Source: Erwinia pyrifoliae DSM 12163 (GTDB lineage Bacteria; Pseudomonadota; Gammaproteobacteria; Enterobacterales; Enterobacteriaceae). Taken from it: a stretch of 17,035 nucleotides of DNA. The notes under the pieces were generated by a model. It made no database searches and was not told where the DNA came from. It saw only the letters and a list, made by a program, of their open reading frames with translations. This document shows positions 15,592 to 16,984 of the stretch, piece after piece (within the stretch, counting starts at the first letter, position 1; every line of letters starts with the position of its first letter). Location: positions 2,107,808 through 2,124,842 of the forward strand of contig NC_017390.1 in assembly GCF_000026985.1 (NCBI RefSeq), given 5' to 3'. The translations under genes were made by a program, and so were the position numbers.

Positions 15592-16029
15592 TTATTCAAC
15601 CCTTCCCTGCAGATAAAGAATATTCTTTTCTAATTTCGCCACCAGCATAACCATCTTAACGATCTCTGCTGGCGAGATGCCGTCCAGAATATCATCACGA
15701 GTGGCAGAAATAACATGCTCAACCTGAGTGATAATCGGTTCTGCCTGATGGGTCAGGCTGATTCTTTTCGCCCGACGGTCGTTAGAACAGGTACTGCGCG
15801 AAATCAGCCCCTTTTCTTCCAGCTGATCAAGGGTGCGCACCAACGATGGCTGTTCAATACCAATTGCTTTTGCCAGCTGGATTTGTGACTGCTCAGGCGG
15901 TAGTTTATGGATGTTATGCAATGTTATCCAGTGGGTTTGCGTCAACTCCAGCGGTTTAAGTCTCTGGTCAATGAGTGCTCGCCAAATGCGTACTAATCTG
16001 GCCATGTCTGTTCCCAATGGTGTGTCCAA
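15592..16029 (-). CDS. slyA: SlyA, MarR-family transcriptional regulator
   Basis: A 145-residue winged-helix MarR-type dimer that activates and derepresses envelope and virulence genes, often by displacing H-NS, in Salmonella and relatives. Seen: [25 protein letters not shown], the recognition-helix region [23 protein letters not shown], and wing residues [11 protein letters not shown] chose the TTG at 16029: GGGAG (16036-16040) then lies six bases away and the N-terminus becomes MDTPLGTD, like E. coli MESPLGSD. An in-frame TTG two codons earlier (16035) abuts the GGGAG directly and is less likely. SlyA of E. coli also starts at TTG. A near-perfect SlyA operator just upstream implies autoregulation. 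Confidence 0.96.
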
Positions 16030-16045
16030 TTTCAACTCCCTATAA

Positions 16046-16179: not shown

Positions 16180-16223
16180 AGCCGGTCAGTATTGCCCGCA
16201 TCCCCCCTGCTGACCGGCTTTTT
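16180..16223 (+). terminator. Rho-independent terminator with no gene upstream
   Basis: AGCCGGTCAG (16180-16189) pairs perfectly with CTGACCGGCT (16210-16219) across a 20-base loop and is followed by four more T (16220-16223). The run of T is only on the + strand, so it ends a rightward transcript. slyA points away from it, so no annotated gene supplies that transcript. A second stretch, GCCGGT at 16158-16163, can also pair with the 3' arm (ACCGGC, 16213-16218) and could act as an antiterminator. Best read as the end of a small RNA or an attenuator before the gene at 16538. Confidence 0.65.
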
Positions 16224-16495: not shown

Positions 16496-16537
16496 TTGCG
16501 TGGGTATATATCTTTAATGGCTTTCAGGGAGGAAAAT

Positions 16538-16918
16538 ATGCAGCAAGAAATAAGGTTAACACCGTCATGTGACGATATGACAGCGATCAAACTATCTCAG
16601 CAGGAAATAAAAAGAGATATCCATGAGCTGCGTAAGGAGGTTAAAGAGGATACTGGTGCTCTACGTCAGGAGGTTAAACAGGACATAAGCGCTTTACGCC
16701 AAGAGGTCAAACAGGACTTTGAGGCTTTGCGCACGGAAGTCAAACAGGACATTGGTGCTCTGCATCAAGGAATGAATAACGATATGAGTCATTTGCGTCA
16801 GGATATGTACAGACTTCAGCAGCATGCCCGCACCGACTTCAGACTGCTGTTCGGCGCGCTGATTTCCCTGGCGATTGGCATGTCAGGCCTTGTAGCGAAA
16901 GCATTCAACTGGATTTAA
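16538..16918 (+). CDS. Unrecognised hendecad coiled-coil protein with C-terminal membrane anchor
   Basis: A 126-residue product. I chose the ATG at 16538 because AGGGAGG lies just upstream; the frame opens 14 codons earlier at a TTG. After a short N-terminus (1-22) come repeats of 11 residues: EIKRDIHELRK (23-33), EVKEDTGALRQ, EVKQDISALRQ, EVKQDFEALRT, EVKQDIGALHQ and GMNNDMSHLRQ (78-88), then DMYRLQQHART. Residues about 101-120 (FRLLFGALISLAIGMSGLVA) form a single membrane helix, followed by KAFNWI. A long charged coiled coil anchored by its C-terminus is the likely form, with most of the chain in the cytoplasm. The pattern recalls DUF1640/CCDC90-like and Borrelia Bdr proteins, by architecture only. 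Function unknown; it stands alone with its own likely promoter. Confidence 0.85.
   Translation: MQQEIRLTPSCDDMTAIKLSQQEIKRDIHELRKEVKEDTGALRQEVKQDISALRQEVKQDFEALRTEVKQDIGALHQGMNNDMSHLRQDMYRLQQHARTDFRLLFGALISLAIGMSGLVAKAFNWI
16604..16801 (+). repeat. 33-bp tandem repeats encoding 11-residue coiled-coil units
   Basis: Six consecutive 33-bp units start at 16604, 16637, 16670, 16703, 16736 and 16769. The middle four share a GAGGTTAAACAGGAC-type opening with few differences and a CTnCG-type end; the first and last are more diverged. The DNA similarity of the central units suggests expansion by unit duplication, and copy number may vary between strains. Confidence 0.8.
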
Positions 16919-16929
16919 GCATTTTAAAT

Positions 16930-16984
16930 TACAGTCTGGAAACGGGGGCGGTTTGAGAGCGAAGACTGTAACGTCATCACGTTA
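16930..16984. other. Overlapping inverted repeats after the coiled-coil gene
   Basis: TACAGTCT (16930-16937) pairs with AGACTGTA (16963-16970), and TAACGT (16969-16974) pairs with ACGTTA (16979-16984) around a four-base loop. The two stems share bases 16969-16970. Neither is followed by a T-run. They may end the message or belong to an element that continues past the window; the last 50 bases show no recognisable gene. Confidence 0.4.

Follow-up and report, generated by a model that had tools for sequence, protein, structure and literature searches.

A hendecad-rod protein encoded beside slyA in Erwinia belongs to a mostly prophage family and may be a host-kept part of a prophage exclusion cassette

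Introduction

Several described bacterial and phage proteins join a helical rod to a membrane segment or occupy places in prophage genomes that bear on the gene studied here. The Bdr proteins of Borrelia are prophage-plasmid proteins with variable 11-residue repeats and a membrane C-terminus. XhlA of PBSX, which we take to be a lysis/holin accessory, is presumably a different protein from the Xenorhabdus haemolysin that is also named XhlA. A paper on Mannheimia phages equates haemolysin XhlA with the PBSX-type XhlA (PMC4553209). As described in another report, RexAB of phage lambda and of Pseudomonas putida is encoded by two genes behind the CI repressor gene, one for a small cytosolic protein and one for a membrane partner; in lambda rexAB sits immediately downstream of CI, and the membrane partner, once activated, damages the membrane (PMC12894663).

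Here we report a computational analysis of a gene for a 126-residue protein near the right end of a 17,035-nucleotide stretch of Erwinia DNA (the window, meaning the whole stretch that was analysed), together with its relatives in Erwinia, in other bacteria and in prophages. The proteins that share its C-terminal tail are called family F, and the gene found upstream of F in many prophages is called X.

Results

The gene and its flanks

The features of the locus and of related loci are collected in Table 1. GGGAGG and ATGCA stand at the identical place in six Erwinia genomes, which confirms the start codon and the strong ribosome binding site claimed by the initial annotation. Two other frames were discarded, namely a TTG start at 16496, conservation being limited to the ATG at 16538 with its ribosome binding site, and a ten-codon leader frame upstream of the gene, the stop of which is not kept in G002. 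The block upstream of the F gene is partly conserved in four Erwinia genomes; the likely promoter of its own that had been proposed found no support, as sigma-70 consensus sites numbered 0 against 2.5 in shuffled sequences.

To the left, the earlier observation that the gene order of E. coli ends after slyA fits the window, but it does not describe four sister Erwinia (G003, G004, G016 and G032), in which three extra genes lie between slyA and the F gene; the two genes are adjacent in G002 (L025). The position of the F gene directly beside slyA therefore looks secondary. To the right, where a partner had been suspected beyond the edge of the window, none was found, and an IS256-like transposase is followed instead by a DUF1289 gene. 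The identities IS256-like, DUF1289, slyA and RsxC, like other gene names unless a record gives them, are putative. The window F gene is thus surrounded by housekeeping-like genes and an IS transposase, with no prophage setting around it. An open reading frame search found no gene X between slyA and the window F gene, nor any in the 174-base gap in L026; inspection by eye found no lysis genes in the window or in the 12 kb to its right, and Rfam gave 0 matches within the 14 kb of L024.

Between slyA and the F gene (16180-16219), TTTTTA comes after a 10-bp inverted repeat without mismatch (AGCCGGTCAG/CTGACCGGCT), which is not retained as such in G032 or G016. Directly past the F stop codon (16929-16971) is another perfect inverted repeat, with arms of 9 bp, a loop of 25 bases and no T run. 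Positions 1-315 of the window encode what we take to be RsxC C-terminal repeats, with units of about 40 residues. The number of RsxC-type repeats differs between E. amylovora strains, according to one paper (PMC10587187).

Table 1. Coordinates of the features of the locus and of related loci (window positions unless a locus is given).
Feature	Position	Strand	Basis or remark
Coding sequence, predicted tail-anchored coiled-coil protein assigned to family F, 126 aa	16538..16918	+	translation; start kept in six genomes; omega
Ribosome binding site GGGAGG	16527..16532	+	sequence; kept in six genomes
Six 11-residue units, residues 24-89, first and last loose	16607..16804	+	lag-11 self-match; period; 33-bp DNA repeat
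Conserved tail, residues 98-126	16829..16915	+	invariant residues; hydropathy; prophage-only profile
Hydrophobic helix, about residues 101-119	16838-16894	+	hydropathy
slyA (putative), divergent left neighbour	15592..16035	-	open reading frame
IS256-like transposase, with masked/ambiguous letters (X in translation)	L024:2868-4076		immediately to the right of the window
Pairs of a zinc-ribbon X and an F-like gene, each near an integrase-like fragment	L208:1058-1956; L209:1097-1827		two other Erwinia genomes

A hendecad rod on one membrane helix

The window protein consists of about 23 N-terminal residues, six 11-residue units that start at residues 24, 35, 46, 57, 68 and 79, and one hydrophobic helix near the C-terminus. 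The units are hendecads by two measures: the lag-11 self-match of residues 19-97 is 33/68, compared with 4.6 in shuffled sequences (p 0.0005, the lowest value that 2000 shuffles allow), and hydrophobic periodicity peaks at 3.67-3.68 residues with nothing at 3.5, a height that none of 1000 shuffles reached. A 33-bp repeat was also detected in the DNA by TRF. The claim of at least six hendecads thus holds, the outermost two of the six being loose, and so does that of a single hydrophobic helix with a very short tail, since the best Kyte-Doolittle 19-mer (residues 101-119) has a mean of 1.89 and the best one within residues 1-98 has -0.26. The membrane-tethered rod that was proposed from these features fits the sequence, and nothing contradictory was found.

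The hendecads are real, but they are not what is special about the protein; they also recur in unrelated proteins, and the relatives described below carry 7-, 11- or 14-residue repeats on a common tail, so that the repeat unit does not define the family. Filing the protein by its hendecads was abandoned, because scans of Pfam, NCBIfam and PHROG return dozens of weak coiled-coil families. All Pfam and NCBIfam matches listed fall below their cut-offs except Focal_AT, which equals its own at 23.3 bits and which we take as a helix pattern only.

The conserved tail defines family F

On sequence comparison, the marker of the family is the tail DFRxLFGAxIxxAxGxxxLxAKxFxW, in which D100, F101, R102, F105, G106, G114, A120, F123 and W125 are invariant in 31 sequences. 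A tail profile made from 38 prophage members only finds the window protein at E 5.2e-8, and it scores 22 hendecad decoys, 11 of them labelled PF07798, at E 5600 or worse. PHROG 20262, annotated as function unknown and overlapped by PHROG 3556 and 6136, matches residues 57-126 of the window protein at E 7.2e-7 and 38 of the 39 members of the family alignment A3, and the family profile matches 1503 protein clusters, none with an assigned function. Judging by these matches, the window protein almost certainly belongs to a large, mostly prophage family. The initial annotation, which recognised no described bacterial system for the gene, was right as to function, although the databases do hold the family itself. 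The N-terminal half behaves differently from the tail: a profile of this half (motif near MEARVAKLESDVEYIK) gives the window protein E 2.4, within the decoy range, and is not clean, as it scores UPF_BP1 gp48 at 1e-9, HK544c103 at 0.015 and the decoy P0028 at 2.9e-5.

These results bear on whether the protein is instead a member of the CCDC90/DUF1640 family, for which a profile check had been suggested. PF07798 matches at E 1.4e-4 and PDB chain 6h9l, the single PDB match, covers residues 21-68 at E 3e-7, but the 22.2 bits of PF07798 fall short of the 33.5 bits required, the alignment is confined to model columns 72-129 of 175, which is the repeat part with no head part, and 0 of the 22 decoys score with the tail profile. 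Two DUF1640-like proteins (so classified by eye) likewise end in LAKGFHWF, which counts for this alternative and against the explanation favoured below; all told, membership of CCDC90/DUF1640 is very improbable. Such DUF1640-like proteins, ending in LAKGFHWF or IAKGFHWF, lie at L050:1423-1815 and L053:1146-1887, two of them in tandem in L053.

The class-wide search with profile A2 matched 34 of 369 genomes at 0.001, with a best E of 4.8e-8 outside the window's own genome; among the matches listed three reach the model end (two in G086, one in G225), and the two A2 matches in L050 and L053 that reach it are the DUF1640-like ones, without DFRxLFGA. With P0038 as the query the same 369 genomes gave 1 match at 1e-8, in the window's own genome, and in the family-wide search with profile A3 14 of 246 genomes matched at 1e-8; the tail end is reached by four of the matches, one of them that of the window itself. 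The search of named phages with P0001 returned 3 records, two of them the same phage, PS-1, under separate accessions; APSE-2 and a plasmid from Arsenophonus were dropped, their repeats being shared and the tail absent. A plasmid DNA search gave no match, nor did a megablast-only search in which the DNA of two prophage cassettes was run against complete E. coli genomes. PADLOC, run on the 39 members, gave one LeoC match (4.4e-6) and one LeoA match (1.8e-4), and a PDB sequence search with the family profile gave six weak matches (E 0.038 or worse). Literature searches, with subscription papers mostly outside their reach, returned no description of family F, of its partner X or of their slot, and the papers searched contained no test of an F or X protein against phage.

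Rod length steps

Of the 182 proteins measured, 136 have a distance of 31 residues between the N-terminal motif and DFR. The remaining proteins show 19 distinct increments, 17 of which are sums of 7s and 11s (p 0.004), and among increments up to 30 the proportion is 8 of 9, compared with 30% by chance (p 0.0004); these statistics count distinct lengths rather than independent events, and they test a pattern that had already been noticed. Rod length thus changes mostly by 7 and 11 residues, steps that keep helix phase. The same pattern would be expected without selection from tandem duplication of 21- or 33-bp units, and equally from selection for helix phase. The repeat number varies across strains, a comparison that had been suggested earlier: the natural length variants have 114, 126, 137, 148 and 180 residues, slyA-type rods differ from that of the window by -11, +11, +22 and +55 residues (one N-terminal residue allowed for in two), the rods of G003 and G004 differ by 42, and that of the E. 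amylovora entry P0002 differs by 11 from that of G002, taken as E. amylovora by likeness.

Distribution and selection in Erwinia

Named close matches of the window protein come from E. amylovora, E. tasmaniensis and E. piriflorinigrans. The genus search found a match in 12 of 37 Erwinia genomes and a match with the tail in 11; G022 (L041), which has no tail, was dropped from the family count. At the slyA/DUF1289 site the F gene is present in six genomes (G000, G002, G003, G004, G016 and G032) and open in all six, although in G003, a genome with 10% contamination, the region is split over two contigs. Omega, calculated pairwise over the last 45 codons, lies at 0.07-0.29 for 14 of the 15 pairs, the other pair (G003-G004) having 0.33 with almost no changes. 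When 16 N-terminal codons are compared instead, values of 0.08-0.38 are obtained for five pairs, while nine pairs are saturated and one pair is identical. The F tail at the slyA site is under purifying selection. The gene could also be a decaying relic without function, as its patchy occurrence in the genus, its variable repeat number and its absent partner would allow, but six open copies out of six, omega well below 1 and the conserved ribosome binding site make such decay improbable.

Away from the slyA site, five Erwinia genomes (G001, G005, G015, G024 and G033) carry nine more F genes, with neighbours that look housekeeping-like by eye. In two of the 37 genomes (G025 and G034) a zinc-ribbon X precedes an F-like gene that has a different tail, beside what by eye is an integrase-like fragment, from which it follows that a cassette can outlive its prophage; X of the P0236 type was found in 0 of the 37 genomes in a search run without a positive control. 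In a midpoint-rooted tree of 69 sequences over 35 columns, the slyA type falls together with sequences of Luteibacter type and from metagenomes (local support 0.86-0.98) and not with prophage sequences, and a viral scan with the slyA type returned no match exceeding 45% across the greater part of that type's length.

Solo genes amid housekeeping-like genes at several sites, purifying selection, and the grouping with proteins of the Luteibacter type, for which the searches gave no close relative among viruses, are also what one would expect of a host scaffold or tether, that is, an ordinary Erwinia inner-membrane rod which positions a cytosolic partner, has no phage role and whose tail served prophages as a convenient anchor. 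The relatives that come with context are mostly viral or prophage, although the scans used a viral collection, and occurrence of the tail in 11 of 37 genomes is patchy; we regard such a tether as somewhat unlikely.

Two further rod proteins are encoded in the window's own genome. The one at L156:1375-1743 has a glycine-rich linker, an N-half like that of prophage F and another membrane tail, and adjoins a ParA-like gene. The one at L155:1492-1848 has a rod of 7-residue repeats and a hydrophobic C-terminal end that is not the F tail, and a stop was reported inside its matched stretch.

Prophage relatives and the upstream gene X

A scan of IMG/VR gave 88 loci, of which 80 were kept; a simple pattern found open reading frames in 69 of the 80, not all of them F itself, and 54 distinct F genes were used for the context counts. 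A cluster of repressor reading frames (CI/S24-type by eye) occurs in 36 of the 80 viral loci, on the same strand in 32. Half of the F genes (27/54) have a repressor within the stretch examined, less than 2 kb upstream and on the same strand in 23; for the other 27 the stretch examined holds none, and some F genes lie among tail genes (by eye).

A same-strand reading frame of at least 55 aa ends near the F start in 51 of 54 cases, a count that includes frames which are plainly not X (L080, L120 and L141, a repressor in L141). Under a stricter rule the count is 43 of 54, against 3391 of 9047 random points (37.5%), so that by itself it is modest evidence, and the sequences of the upstream genes are better evidence for an X-F pair. 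Two CxxC pairs are present in 16 of the 54 upstream genes, and an alignment of 14 upstream proteins, picked for this feature, keeps four cysteines and little else. X comes in zinc-ribbon, beta-like or alpha-like types; when six viral X proteins were compared with PHROG, two matched 4293, one matched 5893 and three matched none. Prophage F tends to be the second gene of an X-F pair, often behind a CI repressor or in slots that other phages use for exclusion genes. At L120:5368-6189 the X place before the F gene is occupied by a second F-like protein, which is longer, contains 11-residue repeats and ends in a different tail.

Named phages

The gene order in PS-1 is cI, PS1_27 (X) and PS1_26 (F). 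In HK544 it is cI, c104, c103, Timm and oL, the pair c104-c103 standing in the place of rexA-rexB, and in UPF_BP1 the pair gp49-gp48 is flanked by gene 16 and an mnt-like gene, where P22 has sieA. HK544c103 and UPF_BP1 gp48 have PHROG 3556 and the N-half in common with F and have different membrane tails, and they seem from their sequences to be looser relatives. UPF_BP1 gp49 and X of L100 share 61% identity across 80 residues. Since the F of L100 ends in the standard tail, both tail types occur with a single X family; HK544c104 gave no alignment with X of L096.

The build of a helix rod with one C-terminal membrane helix would also suit a lysis or holin accessory like PBSX XhlA. PF10779 matches 12 of the 39 A3 members at E 0.01 (best 1.3e-6) and is carried by 9 of the 120 relatives listed, and database names point the same way, but it is not among the 25 of 51 Pfam families listed for the window protein, and the lysis genes of UPF_BP1 and PS-1 lie elsewhere, far from the X-F pair, while the HK544 relative is in the immunity region. 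A role of this kind is quite improbable. In the Mannheimia phage paper an "xhlA" gene, whose product has one membrane helix, is listed as adjoining cI (PMC4553209), and its likeness to F is one of description only.

Discussion

We favour, at a probability of roughly 0.45 for the whole chain, the explanation that the window gene is the membrane part of a prophage exclusion cassette that the host has kept. The chance that prophage F works in exclusion, as its gene position would suggest, is about even, and that the solo Erwinia copy still does so is doubtful. The widest form of the idea, in which one conserved anchor, a swappable X in rex or sie slots, a rod that serves as a membrane ruler and solo copies kept by Erwinia make up a large undescribed class of exclusion systems, we hold to be more doubtful still.

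The exclusion reading is supported by the repressor upstream of F in many loci, by pairs that stand where rexAB would be expected in HK544 and sieA in UPF_BP1, by the X-F pair behind cI in PS-1 with lysis genes elsewhere in PS-1 and UPF_BP1, and by the X and F-like pairs next to integrase-like fragments in two Erwinia genomes. It is weakened by the window gene being without X and without an adjacent phage gene, by an N-half that is undetectable in the window protein and is all that the HK544 and UPF_BP1 proteins share with F, and by the half of F genes with no repressor nearby. The origin from a prophage in particular is weakened by the grouping of the slyA type with Luteibacter-type proteins.

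A mechanism can be outlined on this basis. F would have its N-terminus in the cytosol and its C-terminal helix inserted into the inner membrane, a topology to which the charged rod and the lack of a visible signal sequence point, and it may oligomerise through rod and tail. In prophages, X would be a cytosolic sensor or regulator and F the membrane effector, blocking an infecting phage or arresting the cell, as in RexAB. The Erwinia copy would be what remained once X was lost; its protein, with a reach set by rod steps of 7 or 11 residues, could act on its own as a tether or a constantly present exclusion factor in the inner membrane.

If the exclusion reading is true, some 1500 protein clusters with no assigned function gain a testable role and the X-F cassettes form a set for phage assays in laboratory E. 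coli, and the solo Erwinia copies show hosts retaining single parts of prophage exclusion systems. The stepwise rod length poses the question of whether head and anchor must hold the same helix face.

Among known families, CCDC90/DUF1640 (PF07798) has a hendecad stalk and a C-terminal membrane helix as in the window protein, which lacks the head-neck part, and Borrelia Bdr is likened to the window protein by its general description only, a literature search on it having yielded nothing of use. XhlA (PF10779) resembles F in its helical rod and single C-terminal membrane helix and differs in that the orthologue P0004 scores 21.1 bits against a curated cut-off of 34.7 and that no lysis neighbours of the window gene were seen. 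PHROG 20262 has the tail in common with the window protein but is a phage family, whereas the window gene is solo and chromosomal and encodes a longer hendecad rod. The likeness to SieA of P22 is positional, the slot from gene 16 to mnt being that of the pair with an F-like member in UPF_BP1, and SieA is one gene where UPF_BP1 has two. P. putida RexB has four membrane helices (PMC12894663), and F has one. In P. putida prophage P1, PP_3897 and PP_3898 separate cI from rexAB and are candidates for an X-F pair. The prophage X-F pair is like RexAB in gene order and build, with no likeness of sequence implied; the window gene is single and lies beside slyA, whereas some of its prophage relatives do have the arrangement of RexAB, two genes behind CI.
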